From IMG/VR virus record IMGVR_UViG_3300032562_000147, positions 1 to 27,292 of that record: DNA of 27,292 nt. One strand, given 5' to 3'. The translations under genes and the position numbers were made by a program. This DNA comes from a virus. The notes under the pieces were generated by a model. It had not been told where the DNA came from. It did not search any database and saw nothing but the letters and a program-made list of their open reading frames with translations. Positions 698-10,713 of the stretch are shown here, piece after piece (the stretch's first letter is position 1; each line of letters begins with the position of its first letter).

Positions 698-1035
698 CTT
701 ATACCGCCGCCCTGCGCCACGGATGCGCGCGCGCGCGGGATGCGGCCCTTGCGCGCCATGGATTGCTGCTGGAGGAAGGAGACTTTCGTGCCATGGCACT
801 GGCCATCATCGCGGCGGTTTCGGGCGATGTCTCCGGCGCCATCCTGGTATCCCGCCAGGCGCAGGGGCGCGAAATATGGATCGTGCGCGTACCGGGCGGC
901 CCGGCGGTGCGGGTGGTCTACGCACCCGAGCGGGCACAGATCGTGACGGTGCTTTCATGCCGGCATGATCTTCCTCCGAGTCCTCGGGCGGCGCGGGAAA
1001 AACTGTTCATGGCGGAGGTGCGCAGGGCAAAATGA
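694..1035 (+). CDS. Hypothetical phage protein, alpha/beta fold
   Basis: A 113-residue protein from the GTG at 694, chosen because GTGA couples it to the previous stop; the frame is open far upstream (from 94) but that part is antiparallel noise over other genes. The N-terminal third is Ala/Arg-rich and helical. It is followed by alternating hydrophobic strands, roughly residues 47-88, containing IWIVRVPGGPAVRVVYAPE and IVTVLS. The strand pattern faintly recalls RelE/DUF4258-type beta sheets, but I see no catalytic signature and do not assign a function. The ATGA overlap at 1032-1035 links it to the late activator gene. Confidence 0.6.
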   Translation: MTYTAALRHGCARARDAALARHGLLLEEGDFRAMALAIIAAVSGDVSGAILVSRQAQGREIWIVRVPGGPAVRVVYAPERAQIVTVLSCRHDLPPSPRAAREKLFMAEVRRAK

Positions 1036-1544
1036 GCACGCTGGATTACCAACTCGCGCTGATGCCCGCGACGATCCAGCGCGTGGCGGCGCTTGCCACC
1101 CCTGCGCTGGCTATTCGCTTTGCCAGGCGGTTTGGGGGCCAGAAAATCTACGTGCCGAAGCGGGTCTATAGTGCGCATCCACTCGTCAAATGCCTTGGTT
1201 GGGCGGCGGCGCAGCGTTTGTGCGCAGAGTTTGGCGGTGAGGACTGGGCGGTGCCTTCGGCGAGCAACTATCTCACCTGGCTGGACGCCCGGGCGCTTCG
1301 GGTGTGCGGCCTGTCGAACCCCGATGTGGCCCGCAAGCTGGGCATCACCGTTCGCCACGTGCACCGCCTGCTGGCCGGCTTCGAACCTGACGACGTGGAG
1401 GTGACCGATCTCGTCCGGTCCATCGCGCGGCGCTACGCGGTCCGGCCGCAGGTTCGGTCATCGGTGGCGCCCTTGGTTGAGGACAAGCAGGCTTCCTTCG
1501 CCTTTCCCGCGGACTCGCTGGGGATGCGGCTGACCGAGTGCTGA
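1032..1544 (+). CDS. Mor/C-family transcription activator
   Basis: A 170-residue protein. Residues about 30-85 contain the Mor-family pattern: RFGGQKIYVPKR, then HPLVKCLGWAAAQRLCAEFGGEDWAVP. Next comes a helix-turn-helix around residues 95-120 with CGLSNPDVARKLGITVRHVHRLL. In Mu, Mor and C are dimeric activators of the middle and late promoters. The first gene after it (1643) is separated by a 98-bp non-coding gap, which is where an activated late promoter would lie. The C-terminal 50 residues are basic and unmatched. This is the strongest evidence in the window, with the terminase group, for a Mu-like regulatory logic. Confidence 0.82.
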   Translation: MSTLDYQLALMPATIQRVAALATPALAIRFARRFGGQKIYVPKRVYSAHPLVKCLGWAAAQRLCAEFGGEDWAVPSASNYLTWLDARALRVCGLSNPDVARKLGITVRHVHRLLAGFEPDDVEVTDLVRSIARRYAVRPQVRSSVAPLVEDKQASFAFPADSLGMRLTEC

Positions 1545-1642
1545 AGCTTCGCGGCCTGCCTGGGGCTGACATTGGGCAGTCTGATGAAGCTGTGGCGCTG
1601 TCCATACGCTGTGAGCCAACGCTCGCAACAGGGACAGGTTCC
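1545..1642 (+). promoter_or_regulatory. Intergenic gap, candidate Mor-dependent late promoter region
   Basis: This 98-bp gap separates the Mor-like activator from the first late gene in a stretch where neighbours otherwise overlap. It holds an inverted repeat CTGTCC (1598-1603) / GGACAG (1632-1637), and the second arm lies just ahead of the ATG at 1643. No good sigma-70 -35/-10 pair is seen, which would fit an activator-dependent promoter. The role is inferred from position and by analogy with Mu. Confidence 0.3.
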
Positions 1643-2149
1643 ATGGACATTCTCGCCTCCATCGCCGCCACGCCGCTTGGCACGGTTGTGCCCTACGTCA
1701 CGTTTGCCACTTCGGTTGCGACCGCGCTGTTGCTGTTGCTGCCGGCGCCGTCGGCGGCGAGTTCGGCCGCCTATGTGACGCTCTACAATCTGGTCCATGT
1801 GATCGCGAACTACCGTTCGCTGGCAGCTGCCGCGCCGCCGAGCGCAGCAAAGCCGAGCACGGGCAGCGTACCGCCCGCCGCGGTCGCCTTGCTGTTGCTG
1901 CTGTTTGGCGGCGTGCTGGCAGCCTGCACCGCAGCGCAGACCGCGCAGGTGCAGCAGGCGGTGACCGTGGCCTGCGAGGATGACGCCGCGGTGCAGCCGG
2001 TGATCACGAGCGTGGCGCTGACGGGCGCCGCAGGCGCCACGGTTGCCGCGATCGCCGCCACCGATCAGGCGCTGGTGCATCCGGCGGTGGTTGCGGCCTG
2101 CACGGCGATTTCCGCCACGGCGAAGCCGGTGAGCGTGAGCAGCAACTGA
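1643..2149 (+). CDS. Membrane protein with two hydrophobic segments and an internal lipobox
   Basis: A 168-residue protein from ATG 1643, with a purine-rich AGGGACAGG before it; an in-frame GTG at 1538 would extend it but lacks support. Residues about 12-34 form a first hydrophobic segment. Residues about 79-95 form a second one that ends in VLAAC, a lipoprotein-type lipobox with C95. The part after C95 is Ala/Val-rich with two more cysteines (C111, C153). It sits at the head of the late operon, before the DUF2730-like gene. The layout looks like a small holin-like N-terminus joined to a lipoprotein-like C-terminus. A lysis or envelope role is possible but unproven, and an internal lipobox may not be processed. 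Confidence 0.6.
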   Translation: MDILASIAATPLGTVVPYVTFATSVATALLLLLPAPSAASSAAYVTLYNLVHVIANYRSLAAAAPPSAAKPSTGSVPPAAVALLLLLFGGVLAACTAAQTAQVQQAVTVACEDDAAVQPVITSVALTGAAGATVAAIAATDQALVHPAVVAACTAISATAKPVSVSSN

Positions 2150-2197
2150 AACGGCCGCCTTCGCTTCGCCGCCCGCCGTCCCGTCCGGAGATCCCAC

Positions 2198-2578
2198 GTG
2201 CTCGAAATTCCCGAAGCGATCCGGTTTTGGATTGATCTTTTCGCCGTCATGGGCGGCGCGGTCGGTGTGATCTGCGGTGTGGCCTGGTTCGTCATTCGCA
2301 GCGCCCTGGTGACTCATCAGGCGCTCGGCCGCGCGCTGGAGCCGATGGGGGTGCAGATGGACGACCACGCCGAGCGACTGAGCAAGCTGGAGGGCGACAT
2401 CCGGCAAATGCCCGACGCCCGCGCCTGGGGCGACATGCGTGAGCAGATGGTGCGCCTTGAAGGCGGCGTTGATGCGATCCGCACGGAAACGCGTGGCCTG
2501 CGCGAGACGATGGAGCGGATCGAGCGGCCGCTGAACGTCCTGGTGGACGCCAAGCTGAAACAGCGGGGCGGCGCATGA
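2198..2578 (+). CDS. DUF2730-like (Mu gp25-type) membrane/coiled-coil protein
   Basis: A 126-residue protein from GTG 2198, preceded by GGAG. One transmembrane helix spans about residues 14-33 (VMGGAVGVICGVAWFVI). It is followed by a long amphipathic helix with repeated heptads, residues 50-118, containing HAERLSKLEGDIRQM and MVRLEGGVDAIRTET. This TM-plus-coiled-coil plan, directly upstream of the gp26-, gp27- and gp28-type genes, is that of DUF2730 proteins in Mu-like phages, whose function is not established. Its TGA overlaps the start of the next gene (ATGA at 2575). Confidence 0.72.
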   Translation: MLEIPEAIRFWIDLFAVMGGAVGVICGVAWFVIRSALVTHQALGRALEPMGVQMDDHAERLSKLEGDIRQMPDARAWGDMREQMVRLEGGVDAIRTETRGLRETMERIERPLNVLVDAKLKQRGGA

Positions 2579-2874
2579 GCTTCCGCGATGATTGGACGCG
2601 GGCACGCAGGGTGCAGATCCTGCGCTTTCTGGTGCGCACCGGTGGCGAGGCGAATGAGAGCGTGATCTGCACCGCCATGGAGCACACCGGCTTCGGGCGA
2701 GACACGCGTGAGGATTTCCGGGGCGACATCGAGCATCTGCGCACGCATGGCTGCGTGCGCGAGGAATGGTTCGAGGAGGTTCGCGTCGTCACTTTGACCG
2801 AGCGGGGCGACATGGCCGCGCAGGGGCGCCTGGAAATTCCGGGCGTGCTCTGCGAGCGCTGGCGCGCGCCCTGA
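2575..2874 (+). CDS. VpaChn25_0724-like phage protein (Mu gp26 position)
   Basis: A 99-residue protein with a winged-helix character: a helical N-terminus (RARRVQILRFLVRTGGEANESVI), a helix around DTREDFRGDIEHLRTHGCV, and strands EEVRVVTLTERGDMAAQG. This order matches the small phage proteins annotated as VpaChn25_0724 family. They sit between the DUF2730 and DUF3486 genes in transposable phages. Their role is unknown; DNA binding is suggested by the fold. It is coupled on both sides (ATGA upstream, TGATG downstream). Confidence 0.7.
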   Translation: MSFRDDWTRARRVQILRFLVRTGGEANESVICTAMEHTGFGRDTREDFRGDIEHLRTHGCVREEWFEEVRVVTLTERGDMAAQGRLEIPGVLCERWRAP

Positions 2875-3437
2875 TGCCGCGGCTTTCGCGCATCGATCAG
2901 ATGCCGGCGGATATCCGCGACGCGATCGCGCGCAAACGCGAGGCAGGGCACACGATCGACCAGATTCTCGCTCATCTAGAAGCGCTGGGTGTGCCGCCGG
3001 AGGAGATGCCTTCGCGCTCGGGGCTTGGTCGGAAGATACAGTCGATCGACCGCGTGCTGGAGATGGTGCGCAGCAGCCGCGGCATGACCGAGGCGCTGGT
3101 GGAGCGGCTGGGCGAGGCCAAGGAGGGCCGCGCGGCGCGCGCCAACATCGAGCTGATGCAAGCGCTCGTCATGCAGCTGCTGGCCGCAGCCGCGAGCGAG
3201 GAGAGCGATGTGCTGCTGTCCGCCAAGGAGGCGGCGCTGGTGGCCAAGGCGCTGGCCGATTTGAGCCGGGCGCAGAAGACGGACATGGAAAACACCATTC
3301 GGCTCAAGCGCGAGATGGCCGCCGAAATGGAGAAGAAACTCGCCGAGCTGGGCGATGAGGCGAAGGCCGCGGCGCGGCCGCCGACGCCGGATGAAATGAT
3401 CGCGCGTATCCGGGCGCTGTATGTGGGTGAAGGCTGA
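2874..3437 (+). CDS. DUF3486 family protein (Mu gp27-like, presumed small terminase subunit)
   Basis: A 187-residue protein starting at ATG 2874 in a TGATG overlap; the frame is open further upstream but overlaps the previous gene. It begins MPRLSRIDQMPADIRDAI, the usual DUF3486 opening with a helix-turn-helix-like segment (HTIDQILAHLEALGV). It continues with long helices rich in Leu, Ala and Glu (residues 65-150). The C-terminus holds a TPDEMIARIRALYVGEG tail. In Mu-like phages this gene directly precedes the large terminase and is thought to be the DNA-recognition subunit. The same adjacency, with a TGATG overlap at 3435-3439, is seen here. Confidence 0.82.
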   Translation: MPRLSRIDQMPADIRDAIARKREAGHTIDQILAHLEALGVPPEEMPSRSGLGRKIQSIDRVLEMVRSSRGMTEALVERLGEAKEGRAARANIELMQALVMQLLAAAASEESDVLLSAKEAALVAKALADLSRAQKTDMENTIRLKREMAAEMEKKLAELGDEAKAAARPPTPDEMIARIRALYVGEG

Positions 3438-4771
3438 TGGCGCCGCTGCTTTACCCCTATCAGGCGAAATGGCTGCGCGACCAGGCGCGGTTCAAGATCG
3501 GCATGTTCGCGCGCCAGACCGGCAAGACGTTCACCACCACGTTGGAGATCGTTGACGATTGCGTGGCGGCGGACCTGCGGCTGGGGCGCGCGCGCTGGGT
3601 GATCCTTTCGCGCGGGGAACGCCAGGCGCTGGAGGCGATGAACGAAGGCATCAAGCCGCACCTTCGGGCCTACGGGATCGCGGCCGATCTCATGGAATAC
3701 AATCTGCGGCTTGACGAAGGCACATACCGTGCCGCTGAAGTGGCTCTGCCGCATGGCGGCCGGATCACCGCGTTGCCCGCCAACCCCGATACGGCGCGCG
3801 GGTTCTCGGCCAACGTCTTCCTTGATGAGTTTGCCTATCACAAGGACAGCCGGGCCATCTGGAGCGCCCTGTTCCCGGTTGTGTCCAAGCCAGGGCTGAA
3901 GCTGCGGATCACCAGCACGCCGAACGGCAAGAACAACAAGTTCGCCGAGCTGTGGAGCAGCGACGACGCCACCTGGTCCCGCCACAAGGTGACGATCGAG
4001 GAAGCGGTGGCGGATGGCCTGCCGCGCGACCTGGCCGAGCTGCGGCGCGCCGCGGGTGACGAGGATCTCTGGCGGCAGGAATACGAGCTGGAGTTTCTGG
4101 ACGAGGCCAGCGCCTGGCTGCCTTATGCGGACATCATCGCCTGCGAAGACCCGGCCGCCGGCCGCCCAGAGGCATATCAGGGCGGCCCTGTGTTCGTGGG
4201 CAACGACATTGCCCGGCGCTCCGACCTTTGGGTGGCCTGGGTGCTGGAGCTGCTGGGCGATGTGATGTGGACGCGCGAGATCTCGGTGCTGCGCGGCGCC
4301 AGCTTCGCCGCTCAGGATGCCGAAATCGCCCGCATCATGAGCCGTTACAACGTGCAACGGCTGGTGATGGACCAGACGGGCATGGGCGAAAAGCCGGTGG
4401 AGGACGCGAAGGCGGCGCACGGCCGCGGCCGCGTGACCGGTCTGCACCTGATGGGCGCGGTGCGGATGAACGTGGCCTCTGTGGCCAAGCAGGCTTTCGA
4501 GGACCGGAAGATCCGCATTCCCGCCGGGGACCCGGTGCTGCGGGCGGATCTGCACAAGATCAAGAAGGTGAACAGCGAGACGGGCCTGCCGCGGTTGATC
4601 GCGGACCGTGATGGCGCGGGACACGCGGACCGCGCCTGGGCGGCGATGATGGCGATCGCCGGCGCCGACCCATTCATCACCAAGCCCGATGATGGGCTGC
4701 TGGAATGGATGCGGCGGGAACATGCCGCGATGCTGTCGCGTCGCGAAGCTGACAAGGGGACTGCAGCATGA
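3437..4771 (+). CDS. Terminase large subunit (Mu gp28-type)
   Basis: A 444-residue packaging motor ATPase/nuclease. The ATPase half shows a Walker A ARQTGKT at residues 25-31, a Walker B ending VFLDE at 127-131, and a coupling-motif-like TSTPNG at 159-164. The C-terminal half has an RNase H-like nuclease pattern with candidate metal ligands D257 (GNDIAR), D312 (MDQTGMG) and D398 (GHADRAW). The opening YPYQAKWLRDQARFKIGMFARQTGKT is typical of the Mu gp28 family. It pumps DNA into the prohead through the portal encoded next. It is coupled by TGATG to the small-subunit gene and by ATGA (4768) to the portal gene. Confidence 0.92.
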   Translation: MAPLLYPYQAKWLRDQARFKIGMFARQTGKTFTTTLEIVDDCVAADLRLGRARWVILSRGERQALEAMNEGIKPHLRAYGIAADLMEYNLRLDEGTYRAAEVALPHGGRITALPANPDTARGFSANVFLDEFAYHKDSRAIWSALFPVVSKPGLKLRITSTPNGKNNKFAELWSSDDATWSRHKVTIEEAVADGLPRDLAELRRAAGDEDLWRQEYELEFLDEASAWLPYADIIACEDPAAGRPEAYQGGPVFVGNDIARRSDLWVAWVLELLGDVMWTREISVLRGASFAAQDAEIARIMSRYNVQRLVMDQTGMGEKPVEDAKAAHGRGRVTGLHLMGAVRMNVASVAKQAFEDRKIRIPAGDPVLRADLHKIKKVNSETGLPRLIADRDGAGHADRAWAAMMAIAGADPFITKPDDGLLEWMRREHAAMLSRREADKGTAA

Positions 4772-7467
4772 GCGGTTCAGCGCCCGCGCGCCCCGGCATC
4801 CTCACCCGGCTGGTGGCAGCCGCCCGCTTCGCGGTGACCGGAACCGGCCCTGCGAACTGGTTTGGACCGGCCGAGCCGATCGCGCCGCAGGCGCCGCCCC
4901 AGGTCGCCGGGCGGCAGCTCGACTACACGCCGGCAGTCAACCTGAACTATTCGCCCCGGCACGATGAGGACATCACCGCCGAGCAGCTCCGCGCGCTCGC
5001 CGAGAACTGCGATGTGGTCCGCATCATCATCCAGACCCGCAAGGACCAGTTGGCGGCGCAGAAATGGCAATTCCAGCTGAAGGACAAGACGGCCCGCAAG
5101 CGGCCCGACCCGCGGATCGACCAGCTCAACGCGTTTTTCACGTCGCCCGACAGGGAGCACAGCTGGGACGAATGGATCGGCGCGATCCTGGATGACCTGC
5201 TGGTGATCGATGCGGCGACCGTGTATCCGCGAAGAACCCTGGGCGGTGCGATCTACGCGTTCGAATTCATCGACGGCGCCACCATCAAGCGCGTGATCGA
5301 CGACTGGGGCCGCACGCCGTTGCCGCCGGAGCCGGCTTACCAGCAGATCCTGCATGGGCTGCCAGCGGTGAATTACACGCGCGACGAGCTGCTGTACGCG
5401 CCCCGCAATCTGCGCAGCTACAAGCTCTATGGCATGTCGCCGGTGCAGCAGATCGCGATGACGGTGAACATCGCGTTGCGTCGGCAGATGAGCCAGCTGG
5501 AATACTACACCTCCGGCACCGTGCCGGATGCGCTGGCGGGCGTGCCGGACACGTGGAGCCCGGAACAGATCGGTGAGTATCAGCGCTACTGGGACGAGCT
5601 GCTGACGGACGACACCGCGGCCCGACGCAAGGTGCGGTTCGTGCCGGGCGCCGCGGCGAAGGCGTTCGTGCAAACGAAGGAGGCAATGCTCACCGACGCG
5701 TTCGATGAATGGCTCGCGCGGGTGGCCAGCTATGCCTTCTCGGTGAGCCCGCAATGGGCGGTGAAGCAGGTCAATCGCGCCACGGCCGAGACGGCTGAGG
5801 GCATGGCGAACGCCGAAGGGCTGCAGCCCCTGCTGAAATGGGTGGCTTCGCTGGTCAACCGGATGCTGATGCTGGGTTGGGGGTGGAGCGACATCGAATT
5901 CGCCTGGCATGAGGAGGAGGAGACCGACCCGCAGGCGCAGATGACGATCTCGACCGGCTACCTCAAGGTCGGCGCGCTGACGCTGAACGAGGTGCGCGCG
6001 GATATCGGCCGCGACCCTATCGCTGGCGGCGACGATCCGGTGATCTACACGCCCACCGGCATCGTGCCGCTGAAGGTGGCGCTGCGGCCGCCGCCGCCGC
6101 CCGCCGCGCCGGGAGGTGATGGCGGGGCGCAGGCCGACGAGGCCGATGCGGAGGAAGAGCTGCTGAAGGCGGCGGACCCCGAGACCCGCCTGATCGCGGT
6201 ATGGTCGCACTTCCTGACCAGCGAGGCGCCCCGCGTGGCCGCCGCCATTGTGGCCGCGCTGCCGACACCGGTGACGAAGGCTGCGGGTGACGAGGAAGTC
6301 GAGGACGACCTGCCGGCGCCGAAGAAGAAGGCGCACCCGGACGCGGCGGCCGCCGAGGCGGCGGCGGATGACCTGGCTTCGACGCTGCCGCCTTCCGTGG
6401 AGCGTGTCATCGAGCAGGCGGTGGCCGCGATGCCTTGGCCGGCGGTGCAGGCCAGCACCGAGGCCGTGCTGGCCACCGAGACGGCGGCCGGTGTGGTGGA
6501 GGGCTTGAAGTCCGGCGCCGAGGTGGCTGGCCTGAAGATCCCGAACCCGCTTCGCCAGGCGGACCCGGACGCGGTGCAGGCCGCCCAGGACCAGGCGGCG
6601 CAGCTGGTGAAGGGCGTGAGCCAGACAACGCGTGACGCGCTGAACCGGCTTGTGACGACCGCCGAGAGCGAAGGGTGGGCGCCGAAAAAGCTGGCGGCGC
6701 GGATCGTGGCCGACCACGCGTTCGACGACGACCGCGCTATGCTGATCGCGCGCACCGAGCTGAAGCGGGCGAAGGTGACCGGCAACATCGTCGCCTGGCG
6801 AAGGCAGGCCGCTATGACCGGGCTGATCTTCAAGAAGCGGATCATCCTCGGGCAGAACGAGAACCATTGCATCGCCTGTGAGGCCGCTGTGCGGGAGGGT
6901 GCGATCCCGCTGGATGAGGATTTCTCGGTGGGCTTCGCGCCACCGTTCCACCCGGCCTGTTACTGCTCGATCGTGCCGGTGGTGGAGCGGCCCGTGAAGA
7001 AGGGTTTCGTCTGCGACGACGGCTGCGTGGAGGTGACCAAGGCGTTCAACCCCGACCAGCCGCGCCGCGCCGACGGCAAATTCGCCGCGACAGGGTATGA
7101 CGCGGAGCGCGAGGTCGGGCGCGGCCGGGCGGCGATCGCCAATGTGCTCGCAACGCACCGCGATGCGGTCGATGCCATGACGGCGCGTGGCCTTGGAGCG
7201 GTCTCATTTGTCTGGGGCAAGGCAGGGCACGGAAAGGCATTCCGCCAAGGGTTTGGTCTTGCTCATGTGATCGCAAGACGCGAGGCGGAGGGGCTCGACG
7301 CCTACAGTCTGATCCACCGTATTCCCGAGGTTCTTGCGCATGGAACGGGTGCCCCAGACGGTCGTCGAGGATACGCCTTCGAACTCGGCGGCGAGCGTGT
7401 TGTTCTTGCTCAGGGAGGCAGCGGCCCGGAGGGACACTGGGTGCTGACTGCGTATGTCAAGAAATGA
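4768..7467 (+). CDS. Portal-MuF head morphogenesis fusion with C-terminal PBECR-like nuclease domain
   Basis: An 899-residue fusion. Residues about 50-440 resemble HK97/SPP1-type portals: DVVRIIIQTRKDQLAAQ, LLYAPRNLRSYKLYGMSPVQQ, and NRATAETAEGMANAEGL. Residues 440-630 form an Ala/Pro/Glu-rich linker and helices. Residues about 635-735 are a MuF/SPP1 gp7-type domain with ARTELKRAKVTGN (661-673) and a C-x2-C...PPFHPACYC ending. A short NPDQPRRADGKFAATG linker follows. Residues about 780-899 look like a PBECR nuclease: VSFVWGKAG, GFGLAHVIARR with H833, IPEVLAHGTG, and terminal HWVLTAYVKK. Portal and MuF roles are confident; the nuclease is a family-level inference. Bases 7201-7380 are about 61% G+C by hand count, lower than the preceding part. 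Confidence 0.88.
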   Translation: MSGSAPARPGILTRLVAAARFAVTGTGPANWFGPAEPIAPQAPPQVAGRQLDYTPAVNLNYSPRHDEDITAEQLRALAENCDVVRIIIQTRKDQLAAQKWQFQLKDKTARKRPDPRIDQLNAFFTSPDREHSWDEWIGAILDDLLVIDAATVYPRRTLGGAIYAFEFIDGATIKRVIDDWGRTPLPPEPAYQQILHGLPAVNYTRDELLYAPRNLRSYKLYGMSPVQQIAMTVNIALRRQMSQLEYYTSGTVPDALAGVPDTWSPEQIGEYQRYWDELLTDDTAARRKVRFVPGAAAKAFVQTKEAMLTDAFDEWLARVASYAFSVSPQWAVKQVNRATAETAEGMANAEGLQPLLKWVASLVNRMLMLGWGWSDIEFAWHEEEETDPQAQMTISTGYLKVGALTLNEVRADIGRDPIAGGDDPVIYTPTGIVPLKVALRPPPPPAAPGGDGGAQADEADAEEELLKAADPETRLIAVWSHFLTSEAPRVAAAIVAALPTPVTKAAGDEEVEDDLPAPKKKAHPDAAAAEAAADDLASTLPPSVERVIEQAVAAMPWPAVQASTEAVLATETAAGVVEGLKSGAEVAGLKIPNPLRQADPDAVQAAQDQAAQLVKGVSQTTRDALNRLVTTAESEGWAPKKLAARIVADHAFDDDRAMLIARTELKRAKVTGNIVAWRRQAAMTGLIFKKRIILGQNENHCIACEAAVREGAIPLDEDFSVGFAPPFHPACYCSIVPVVERPVKKGFVCDDGCVEVTKAFNPDQPRRADGKFAATGYDAEREVGRGRAAIANVLATHRDAVDAMTARGLGAVSFVWGKAGHGKAFRQGFGLAHVIARREAEGLDAYSLIHRIPEVLAHGTGAPDGRRGYAFELGGERVVLAQGGSGPEGHWVLTAYVKK

Positions 7468-7611: not shown

Positions 7612-7968
7612 ATGAGCTTCACGTCGCGCTCCCTGCCGGCCGAGCCGGAGGATGACGAGGCCGGGCGCGTCGCGCTGGCCCGCGAGGCGGCGATCCGCGC
7701 AACCGTGGAGGCGCTCAACCGGGTGACCTATTTGCCTGGATCTTCGCACAAAGCATTCGCGCGGCAGATCCGCCAACAGCTGGAGCACTCCGCCGTGCCG
7801 ATCACCGACCGGCAGGAACAGCATATCGCCCGCCTCGCCTGGCGCTATCGCCGGCAGATGCCCGCCCACCTGACGCCGAAGACAAATCCCGATGACCCGC
7901 TTTCGCCCGAGCGTGTTCTGCCGTGGCCGGGGCGGGCGCCCACCAAGAAGGAGCTGTTGGATGGATGA
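7612..7968 (+). CDS. Conserved hypothetical prophage protein
   Basis: A 118-residue protein. ATG 7612 is chosen over the in-frame ATG 7546 because an AAGGAAAG motif lies just upstream and the extra residues look random. The N-terminus is acidic, followed by helices. A characteristic ITDRQEQHIARLAWRYRRQMP segment lies at about residues 64-84, then a Pro-rich tail. Similar short RQ...WRYRRQ-P segments occur in small conserved proteins of alphaproteobacterial genomes and prophages, with no known function. It overlaps the endolysin start by 8 bp. As the first gene after the toxin-like domain it is a positional candidate for an immunity protein, but nothing in its sequence supports that. Confidence 0.65.
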   Translation: MSFTSRSLPAEPEDDEAGRVALAREAAIRATVEALNRVTYLPGSSHKAFARQIRQQLEHSAVPITDRQEQHIARLAWRYRRQMPAHLTPKTNPDDPLSPERVLPWPGRAPTKKELLDG

Positions 7969-8626
7969 CGCCCCCACCCTGTTCGATCGGTGCTTCGGGT
8001 TCCTGATGGAGCACGAAGTGGGTGCGAACCCGCTGGATGCCAGCGCCTGGTCCGGCGCGGCCGTGGGCGATGGCACCTTCCTTGCGGCCGATGATGGTCT
8101 GGACATGAGCGAGGGTGACAAAGGCAACTGGACCGGGGGTGCGGTGGGCGCGGGGGTGCTGGGGGGCACGCGATGGGGGATCTCGACCGCTGCCTATCAT
8201 GATGCCCTCGCACTTGTGCCTGGTGCCGAGCGGGTGGGGTTTCCGGCGCTCGTGAAGGATCTGACGCTGAGCCAAGCAAAGACGCTGTGCATGTTCGCGT
8301 ATTGGAAGCGCGTGCGGTGCGATGTCCTTCCGGGGCCGGTGGCGCTGGTGACGCTGGACGCGGCGTTCAATGCAGGCGTGGGCGCCGGCGCGCGCTGGCT
8401 GCAGGCCGCGGTGGGCGCTGCGCCCGACGGGGCCGTGGGCGCGCTGACCCTCGCGGCGGTGGCGCGCGCTTCGGCGACGGATTGCGGCACGGCGGTGGCG
8501 GCCGAGGCGCTGGCGCGGCGCATCGACGCGATGGCGCGGATGCCGGGATGGGCCACGGATGGGCTTGGCTGGTCCCGGCGTTTGGCGAAGCTGGGGTTCC
8601 AGGCCGCGTCGCTTTCGCGCCCCTGA
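7961..8626 (+). CDS. Endolysin, glycoside hydrolase 108-like N-acetylmuramidase
   Basis: A 221-residue protein. The N-terminal domain has a candidate catalytic E19 in FLMEHEVG and a downstream GDKGNWTGG...GVLGGTRWGIS block (residues 52-74). It continues with CMFAYWKRVRCDVLPGPVAL and AAFNAGVGAGARWLQAAVGAAPDGAVGALTL, which matches the GH108 domain plus its C-terminal peptidoglycan-binding region. It would cleave the glycan strands of the host wall at lysis. The usual EGG is EVG here, and about 30 residues separate it from the GNWTGG block instead of roughly ten, so the active-site loop is unusual. No signal peptide is evident, so export would need a holin. Confidence 0.83.
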   Translation: MDDAPTLFDRCFGFLMEHEVGANPLDASAWSGAAVGDGTFLAADDGLDMSEGDKGNWTGGAVGAGVLGGTRWGISTAAYHDALALVPGAERVGFPALVKDLTLSQAKTLCMFAYWKRVRCDVLPGPVALVTLDAAFNAGVGAGARWLQAAVGAAPDGAVGALTLAAVARASATDCGTAVAAEALARRIDAMARMPGWATDGLGWSRRLAKLGFQAASLSRP

Positions 8627-8633
8627 GCGCCGC

Positions 8634-9431
8634 ATGGAACGCACGGCCGAGCCCAGGCCGAGCTTGATGAGCGGCCTCGTGCGGCGATGGTGGGGAATCG
8701 CCCTGTGTGTCAACGTCGCTGCGCTGGTCTGGCGATGGAGCTATGGCATGGGGTCTTGGGGGTTTTCCGAGTGGGTGCAGAATGGCTCGTGCGGTATCGT
8801 CGCGGTGCTGATCGCGGTTGATCAGGCGGTGCTGGGCATGCCCGGCCTGCTTGCACGGCTGGGGCGGCCTCTCGGAGGCTGGCGATCGGTCATCCCCGTG
8901 ATCTTCATCTGTCTGGCCTGTGGGTCGTATGCGCTGCAATTGCTGCGGCCGGCTTCGTCGTTCGACCTGCCGAAGGGCTACGAGGTGGGCACGCCGTTCG
9001 ACGCGATCCAGGCATGGGGTGTCAACAACCAGGTGTTCTACATGGTGGCCCGCGCACCGCGGGCTGATGTGGGCAACAAGCTGAAGCGCCTGGTGTTGGT
9101 GGTGCAGCCGATCTACGCCAACGTCGATCCGATGACCGACACCTCGATCAAGAAGAGCCAAGCCTACACCATCCTCGACGGGTTCATGACCTTGGCGATC
9201 CCGGTGGCGGCGCCGCCGGTTTGGCGCGGCACACCCGGCCAGGCCGTGCAGCTGCGGTTCTCACTGGTGGAGCTGCCGACGATCTACGCGCCGGAGCAGA
9301 TCCGCTCGCTCGCCGATATCGAAACCCTCGGCGGCCGGATCATCTCGGCCGCGATCGCGGTGATGACGATGGCGGCGCCGCCCGTGGCGGGGGTGGCCGA
9401 CAGCGGCTGCCCGGCGCCGGCTGGCGGCTGA
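8634..9431 (+). CDS. Three-TM membrane protein with C-terminal soluble domain, lysis-adjacent, unknown
   Basis: A 265-residue protein from ATG 8634, seven bases after the endolysin stop; ATG 8667 is an alternative. Hydrophobic helices lie at about 19-35, 52-70 and 86-104. A mostly beta-like soluble part follows (residues 105-235), including LVLVVQPIYANVDPMTD and AVQLRFSLVELPTIY. A weak hydrophobic Ala-rich stretch is near the end (235-255). Its place beside the endolysin suggests a holin-like or envelope-modifying role. However, the 160-residue soluble domain is unlike ordinary holins. I recognise no family. Confidence 0.6.
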   Translation: MERTAEPRPSLMSGLVRRWWGIALCVNVAALVWRWSYGMGSWGFSEWVQNGSCGIVAVLIAVDQAVLGMPGLLARLGRPLGGWRSVIPVIFICLACGSYALQLLRPASSFDLPKGYEVGTPFDAIQAWGVNNQVFYMVARAPRADVGNKLKRLVLVVQPIYANVDPMTDTSIKKSQAYTILDGFMTLAIPVAAPPVWRGTPGQAVQLRFSLVELPTIYAPEQIRSLADIETLGGRIISAAIAVMTMAAPPVAGVADSGCPAPAGG

Positions 9432-9440
9432 GGGGAAGGA

Positions 9441-9605
9441 ATGAGCGAAGTCTTTTATCGATGGCATTGGCGAGCGCGGCTGCCCGAGCGCCACGGCGAG
9501 CTATTCCGCGTGCTGTGCAGGGGCGCGTTGAATTCATGCCTGATCGAATTCTTGTCGGACGGGAGGAGGGTTGTCACTTCGCGCAACGCTCTGCGGCGGG
9601 CATAG
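9441..9605 (+). CDS. 54-residue conserved phage small protein
   Basis: A short gene beginning MSEVFYRWHWRARLPERHGE and ending VVTSRNALRRA, with the core RVLCRGALNSCLIEFLSDGRR. An excellent ribosome-binding site AGGGGAAGGA abuts the ATG. The pattern LPERxGxxxRVLxRGxxNSxLxEFxxGxRVVTSRNAxR is one I have seen in small proteins of alphaproteobacterial prophages. It looks like a small beta-barrel that could bind nucleic acid or another protein. Function is unknown. It starts nine bases after the three-TM gene and is followed by the moron block. Confidence 0.72.
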   Translation: MSEVFYRWHWRARLPERHGELFRVLCRGALNSCLIEFLSDGRRVVTSRNALRRA

Positions 9606-9611
9606 GACGGC

Positions 9612-9623
9612 TCACAATTGTGA
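9612..9623. promoter_or_regulatory. Perfect 12-bp palindrome upstream of moron genes, candidate operator
   Basis: TCACAATTGTGA is a perfect palindrome about 58 bases before the lipoprotein start and just after the stop of the 54-residue gene. It is AT-rich at the centre in an otherwise GC-rich region. No clear -35/-10 pair at normal spacing surrounds it. It could be a repressor site that controls independent expression of the moron genes from the lysogen. This is inferred from symmetry and position. Confidence 0.3.
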
Positions 9624-9680
9624 CGTGACTGCCTGGCGGCAACAAGTACATGCTGGCTTCTTCCTGGTCGGGAGGATGAC

Positions 9681-10091
9681 ATGAAGACGGCCCTTTTTGC
9701 CTTGTTGCTGGTTGGGTTGGCGGCCTGCGCGACTTCCGGTGTGAAGATCGATATGAATCAGGTCGCGACGCTCAAGCCGGGCGTTTCGACCTACGCGGAT
9801 GTCGTTGGGAAATTTGGCCGCCCCACTACGGAGACCATGTCAAGCAACGGCATGCGTTTCGTCACCTATTCCTATTCGACAGCGGCTGCCCGTCCCGAAA
9901 CCTTCATTCCGTTTGTGGGGGGATTCGTCGGAGGCGCCGATGCCCAATCTCAAGTGGTCATGTTTCAGTTCGGCGCGGATGGCAAGCTCACAGGCACGAA
10001 CAGTTCAACCTCGAACATCGGCACCGGAACGGGCTTGCTGAGCGGTGGCAACCAGGCCCAGCGCACAAATCAACCAATCACGCCTCCTTGA
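9681..10091 (+). CDS. Exported lipoprotein, BamE/SmpA-like region, probable moron
   Basis: A 136-residue lipoprotein. The signal sequence MKTALFALLLVGLAAC ends in a lipobox with C16, and Ala at +2 suggests outer-membrane sorting. Residues 23-66 (QVATLKPGVSTYADVVGKFGRP...MRFVTYSY) follow the pattern of the SmpA/BamE/OmlA fold. The C-terminal third is Gly/Ser/Thr/Asn-rich and probably disordered. A strong GGAGGATGAC ribosome-binding site precedes it. It lies outside the coupled gene chain in lower-GC DNA, as expected for an accessory gene that alters the lysogen surface. Possible roles include superinfection exclusion or envelope remodelling; neither is shown by sequence. Confidence 0.78.
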   Translation: MKTALFALLLVGLAACATSGVKIDMNQVATLKPGVSTYADVVGKFGRPTTETMSSNGMRFVTYSYSTAAARPETFIPFVGGFVGGADAQSQVVMFQFGADGKLTGTNSSTSNIGTGTGLLSGGNQAQRTNQPITPP

Positions 10092-10149
10092 GGCCATCTG
10101 GCGGTGCGAGGCAGTCCGTCGAGTTTTTGAGGGTGCGGAGATTGATGTG

Positions 10150-10713
10150 ATGGGGCGCAACCGATGGTCGGCTTACGTTCTGGCGTGCCTTGCCTTGGTA
10201 AGCCCCCGCGCGGCGCATGCGGAGGCGCCGCAGGCGATTCAATACTATCGGACCCTGACGGGCTTGGTCATCAGGACGCTCACAGATAATGCACCGCCGT
10301 ATTTTCAGATGTGCACCCTCATCTTTTTTGGGGGAGAAGCTGATGTGACTTTCAGATGGATGCCACTGGAGAGCGGGGCGGTGATTTCGATCAATCAGGA
10401 AGGTTGGAATTTCGGTGGAATACGCTTCCACACGCGCGTTCGGGTATCGATCGATGGGCAGCCCATTGCGATTTTCCCGGGAGGGTCGCCAGACGGTATT
10501 GTTGATGCGACGACGAGCCGTGACGACGTGACATTGGTAGCCCGCTATCCCGTGCTGGCGGCGCTCCGGAACGCTGCGACTATCAAGGTCGAATTTCCGG
10601 GATCGCGTTCCCGACCAATCGAGATCCATCCCCGGGCCGTTCATGATGTGATGGCGGCGGTGGATCGTTGTTGGCGCGACACCGGATATATCGAGCATGA
10701 TTGGATACCTTGA
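10150..10713 (+). CDS. Secreted protein of unknown function, probable moron
   Basis: A 187-residue protein. ATG 10150 is preferred over ATG 10045 because it places a signal peptide (residues 1-24, ending AHA|EA) at the N-terminus and avoids overlap with the lipoprotein gene. The mature part has two cysteines (C55 and C174) that could pair in the periplasm. It contains alternating strands and the segment PVLAALRNAATIKVEFPG...VMAAVDRCW. G+C is about 50% by hand count in bases 10321-10440, far below neighbouring phage genes. I recognise no family. Its pairing with the preceding lipoprotein suggests the two act together in the envelope. Confidence 0.68.
   Translation: MGRNRWSAYVLACLALVSPRAAHAEAPQAIQYYRTLTGLVIRTLTDNAPPYFQMCTLIFFGGEADVTFRWMPLESGAVISINQEGWNFGGIRFHTRVRVSIDGQPIAIFPGGSPDGIVDATTSRDDVTLVARYPVLAALRNAATIKVEFPGSRSRPIEIHPRAVHDVMAAVDRCWRDTGYIEHDWIP

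Follow-up and report, generated by a model that had tools for sequence, protein, structure and literature searches.

A PBECR1 nuclease-like tip, predicted to be exchangeable, behind a shared junction motif on the portal-MuF protein of a Mu-like phage

The portal protein of a phage is the gate that viral DNA passes on its way into and out of the head. PBECR domains fused to MuF and portal proteins of phages were described by Iyer et al. 2017 (PMC5512222), and the consulted sections of that paper give a PBECR-MuF-portal fusion as the 'simplest' PBECR architecture. The active configuration described there combines a helix histidine with a strand threonine. Phage Mu gp30 likewise carries a C-terminal PBECR domain on a MuF head protein, but this domain is described as inactive in the same sections. 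A second comparable system is the MuF polymorphic toxins of Jamet et al. 2017 (PMC5576092), where a MuF carrier encoded in the packaging module bears a variable C-terminal toxin-type domain and a small open reading frame (ORF) downstream is taken as a sign of immunity. PBECR1 is named in the open literature only in a computational paper. Here, a gene for a portal-MuF-PBECR1 protein was analyzed in a 27,292-base virus record (IMG/VR IMGVR_UViG_3300032562_000147), a genome fragment whose whole length is called the window below.

The gene sits in the packaging module and is a single stop-free frame in the translation of the window (ORF 4768-7467, 899 amino acids). Pfam and PHROG matches place portal, MuF and PBECR in this one polypeptide, in agreement with the original prediction, and the sequence strings that it quoted all occur in this frame. 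Its left coordinate for the terminal region, 7040, is out of frame; the in-frame junction begins at nucleotide 7045 (F760). The triple fusion, which had seemed unusual, is not without precedent and is a further example of the architecture already described. The protein shares its profile (PF18809), active-site residues and MuF plus portal fusion with the PBECR1 domains of polyvalent and MuF/portal proteins in the consulted sections of PMC5512222. What sets this member apart is its Mu-like portal, whose closest relatives have no such domain, and the junction tag recognized here. Sequence and structural model together point to a carrier, an exchangeable tip and a shared tag at the junction between them.

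The Pfam PBECR1 profile matches residues 803-898 with E = 2.7e-8 and 34.7 bits against a curated cut-off of 27.6, and the match is repeated in an independent phage that is 52% identical along the whole protein. The score and its repetition indicate that the match is more than chance, and the expected membership of the PBECR/BECR clan was borne out at the profile level. Solved structures searched with the PBECR1 profile gave nothing below E 0.16, and NCBIfam gave no match for the tip. An AlphaFold model of residues 774-899 (predicted local distance difference test, pLDDT, 89.3; predicted template modeling score, pTM, 0.83; 36 aligned sequences) contains helices followed by a four-stranded sheet. 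The best VIA-align matches to the model are BECR toxins, as had been anticipated: CdiA-CT BWH57 (7m5f, Z 5.8), CdiA-CT NC101 (5i4r, Z 5.2) and BrnT (Z 4.6), all modest scores in a range (Z < 8) that can reflect a common arrangement. The list then runs through RelE, YoeB, HigB and ParE toxins, and about 25 of the top 29 rows are BECR-clan toxins, judged by title. Each Z is modest, and the BECR assignment draws on the consistent agreement among the top structural rows together with the sequence profile. The CdiA-CTs of Serratia marcescens BWH57 (PMC8616854) and Escherichia coli NC101 (PMC9086364) have BECR folds and are the solved structures closest to the model, whereas their delivery system and active-site residues differ and identity is 12-13% over the aligned part.

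The predicted active site consists of H833, located in a helix of the model, and T894, located in a strand, and both are kept in the 52% relative. H833 is the histidine of GFGLAHV that had been singled out for mutation. Active-site residues of the BECR tRNase CdiA-CT EC3006 include H, R and T (PMC9086364). Metal-independent RNase activity would be expected of a PBECR1 member, and the tip is a predicted RNA-cutting domain.

The junction motif was the most unexpected part of the analysis. Its general form is [FY][ND]P[ND]QPR-D-x-x-G-[RKQ]-[WF], and the window copy, FNPDQPRRADGKF, is slightly divergent, its QPR being followed by R where the general form has D. Viral contigs searched at the DNA level for FNPDQPR...G yielded 62 stretches with 68 reading frames, whose N-terminal parts (at least 40 residues) form 25 groups and whose C-terminal parts form 31 groups without BLAST similarity between groups. 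A wider pattern returned at least 120 stretches. The combined searches give at least 134 distinct ORFs from at least 110 records, with at least 37 unrelated N-terminal parts and at least 40 unrelated C-terminal parts. Conservation extends to positions outside the search patterns: in the 40 C-terminal groups listed, R/K/Q occurs at +11 in 36, T/G/A/S at +13 in 37 and G at +15 in 32. Glycine-rich sequence follows the motif. The motif codons are as variable as the rest of the same ORFs, so the protein sequence is kept rather than the DNA, and a DNA-level recombination anchor was rejected on this ground. Among the matches listed, the residues before the motif F show a weak K/A preference and nothing more, the motif lies within 60 residues of the ORF start in 31 of 134 ORFs (some begin M-FNPDQPR), and only 3 uncut ORFs end within 60 residues past it. 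The exact pattern occurs once in 372 alphaproteobacterial genomes, in the portal relative L062, and the reversed control gave 0. Open paper text contained the motif strings tried only in unrelated proteins, and neither the consulted sections of PMC5512222 nor those of a polymorphic-toxin survey mention such a linker. The junction tag is thus an extension absent from the literature searched, an absence that is not proof of novelty.

The domains joined by the motif are diverse. In the matches listed, N-terminal parts match several portal families, MuF, 2H phosphoesterase and InPase. The 107 C-terminal parts listed include 14 ADP-ribosyltransferase (ART) exotoxins, 9 zeta toxins and 4 ART matches, plus single matches to polyvalent ART, CdiA RNase A, PBECR1, PBECR3 and Tox-REase-5, counts that may overlap because some members possibly match two families. 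Roughly one-quarter of these tails match known toxin families, and most others match nothing. The motif stands between carrier and toxin in portal-ART (L206, L219), MuF-ART (L202) and MuF-PBECR3 (L220) proteins, and stand-alone genes that carry the motif close to the beginning adjoin portal, MuF, capsid and terminase genes. Neighboring phage genes in L051 and L235 repeat the motif ahead of metallopeptidase-like, pentapeptide-repeat and ADP-ribosyltransferase-like parts. Three consecutive frames of one phage (L208:1715-6134) each combine the motif with a different C-terminal part.

The tip varies among relatives of the carrier. L045, L046 and L047 are 60-65% identical to the window protein over portal plus MuF, and these proteins stop right after MuF; no PBECR1 was found anywhere in genomes G001 and G002, the homes of L045 and L047. 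On these grounds, the view that PBECR1 is a fixed component of the portal was rejected, and the expectation that close MuF homologs need not carry the domain held. The 52% relative (L005/L004) retains PBECR1 with a tip identity of 44-46%, L060 (48% identical over portal-MuF) has PBECR3 over cut-off at the tip position, and family portals L061, L062 and L064 run on into unrelated tails. In the tip, third-position G+C is about 0.60 (0.596), a level attained in just 1.2% of the phage's 253 coding windows, compared to 0.88 in portal plus MuF, although the drop may also reflect weaker codon constraint. Presence and absence, PBECR3 replacement and codon composition are clear evidence, at the level of sequence comparison, that this phage, compared with close kin, acquired or exchanged its tip as a module. 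Apart from the same phage, a search of viral contigs for close relatives of the tip alone returned a single further one. PBECR1 is rare in genomes, present in 3 of 385 Alphaproteobacteria and 3 of 398 Pseudomonadota (one shared, below cut-off), and the PBECR1 genes inspected in these genomes included no portal fusion. Small free-standing PBECR1 genes occur near positions 5800-6350 of L085, L089 and L093, right after a large ORF in an apparent tail gene cluster. The L061 frame (1099-3252) lacks MuF and runs into a tail whose GYRGQDHYHRENP motif resembles the C-termini of polymorphic toxins; this tail had no Pfam match.

In the explanation favored here, with moderate confidence, portal-MuF serves as the head carrier of a PBECR1 tip of ribonuclease type, which is exchangeable, follows a shared tag and would act on RNA after delivery. 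The protein would be produced late and the tip incorporated with the portal ring. The portal subunit stays in the particle, so delivery would need cleavage or exposure; the tip would probably be freed or exposed during DNA delivery, and the junction tag is a candidate cleavage site. The tip would then cleave RNA inside the newly infected cell, to the benefit of the phage. Host or phage mRNA, or CRISPR RNA, are possible PBECR targets suggested in the consulted sections of PMC5512222, and the present data choose none of them. The tag itself probably acts as a signal for processing or head association in many phage head proteins with toxin domains. Leads for comparison are the capsid targeting sequence of phage T4 and the junctions that precede the toxin in CdiA and Rhs proteins. 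A broader proposal is made tentatively, as a serious possibility: [FY][ND]P[ND]QPR-D-x-x-G-[RKQ]-[WF]-x-x-G may be a functional head-protein tag for processing or head-loading, comparable in role to these sequences, that would let unrelated phages mount interchangeable toxins on portals, MuF or stand-alone head cargo.

Several points weigh against the delivered-ribonuclease explanation, in addition to the modest Z-scores and the ambiguous codon signal. The MuF match (PF04233, E 5e-4) is under the Pfam cut-off but is backed by PHROGs head-morphogenesis profiles. Foldseek against the PDB returned no match with E < 0.001, the E-values being above 0.3. The tip is fused to every portal subunit, so ejection requires cleavage. 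The junction motif could also be a mere flexible linker or shared recombination site with no role of its own. This is possible but rather doubtful: the glycine-rich stretch after the motif and the many different domains it connects fit a linker, but the R/K/Q, T/G/A/S and G positions are conserved outside the search patterns, the codons vary like background, and no linker is needed where the motif lies near the ORF start.

Use of the protein by lysogens as a classical MuF polymorphic toxin against competing bacteria, with an immunity gene for protection, would fit the occurrence of MuF toxins in temperate phages (PMC5576092), the different tips of relatives and the Mu-type regulators of this phage. 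This reading is unlikely. The small ORF at 7612-7968 was rejected as the cognate immunity gene because it is also kept behind toxin-free portals, and none of the other candidates was conserved. The absence of a toxin-specific downstream immunity gene weakens the competitor-killing reading and favors a virion-borne effector, although an immunity gene may lie elsewhere in the genome, the record being a fragment. The toxins of PMC5576092 differ in the same respect, and portal and MuF form one polypeptide here. More improbable still is a catalytically dead tip serving as an RNA-binding or structural head part, as the consulted sections of PMC5512222 propose for the PBECR domain of Mu gp30. The tip does belong to a structural protein, but H833 and T894 are both retained in the window protein and its 52% relative, unlike the Mu domain called inactive, and close portals without a tip indicate that it is dispensable for the head. 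A further difference from Mu gp30 is that the portal is part of the fusion here.

The window encodes a Mor-family activator and a Mu Gp27-like small terminase, which makes the 'Mu-like' label fair, together with an endolysin-type gene and head and tail genes. Possible signs of a temperate lifestyle are the Mor activator and Gp27 in this 27-kb fragment and the relatives in contigs of metagenome-assembled genomes (MAGs). The nearest portal-MuF relatives are in MAG contigs named Rhodospirillales. One relative named Burkholderiales is probably a mis-binned copy, because the bin number is the same and the match coordinates are identical. The prophage-like contig of L045 also has a second, free-standing MuF-like gene (L045:10366-10806; 31% identity to the window MuF), some 2.3 kb downstream from its portal-MuF gene. 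Between the endolysin-type and protease-type genes of the window (8559-10713) are ORFs for a membrane protein, a lipoprotein-like protein of 136 residues and a signal-peptide protein of 222 residues; they are mostly unmatched in relatives and are possible morons. NZ_CP034394.1 (L073), a 43-kb circular Herbaspirillum 'plasmid', encodes a portal-MuF relative as well as a terminase and may therefore be a circularized prophage or a phage-plasmid.

Table 1. Coordinates of the portal-MuF-PBECR1 gene, its predicted parts and neighboring genes in the window.
Feature	Position	Strand	Evidence
Portal-MuF-junction-PBECR1 protein, 899 residues	4768..7467	+	One frame; PHROG 2662 portal E 2.3e-99, residues 45-744
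Portal domain, residues 84-411	5017..6000	+	Pfam PF04860 E 8.8e-18, over cut-off
MuF domain, residues 628-735	6649..6972	+	Pfam PF04233 E 5e-4, under cut-off; PHROG 2468 head morphogenesis 7.5e-16
Junction motif FNPDQPRRADGKF, residues 760-772	7045..7083	+	At least 134 phage ORFs share it, flanks unrelated
PBECR1 nuclease-like domain, modeled residues 774-899	7087..7464	+	Pfam PF18809; AlphaFold; VIA-align; third-position G+C
Predicted catalytic H833, in helix	7264..7266	+	H in 29/36 aligned sequences, 23/23 of nearer set
Conserved R838	7279..7281	+	R in 23/23 of nearer set
Predicted active-site T894, last strand	7447..7449	+	T in 32/36, S in 3/36 aligned sequences
Small downstream gene	7612..7968	+	Counterparts directly behind toxin-free portal-MuF genes of L045-L047
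Terminase large subunit	3437..4771	+	Pfam PF03237 / PF17289
Mu Gp27-like terminase small subunit	2766..3437	+	Pfam PF11985 1.6e-28
Mor-family late activator	1032..1544	+	Pfam PF08765 6.2e-6; PHROG 836 6.1e-21

If the tip is delivered, the phage would have a weapon integrated in its DNA gate itself, and the existence of kin with and without the tip makes its effect testable. If the tag is functional, it would provide a simple sequence handle to find virion-delivered phage effectors.
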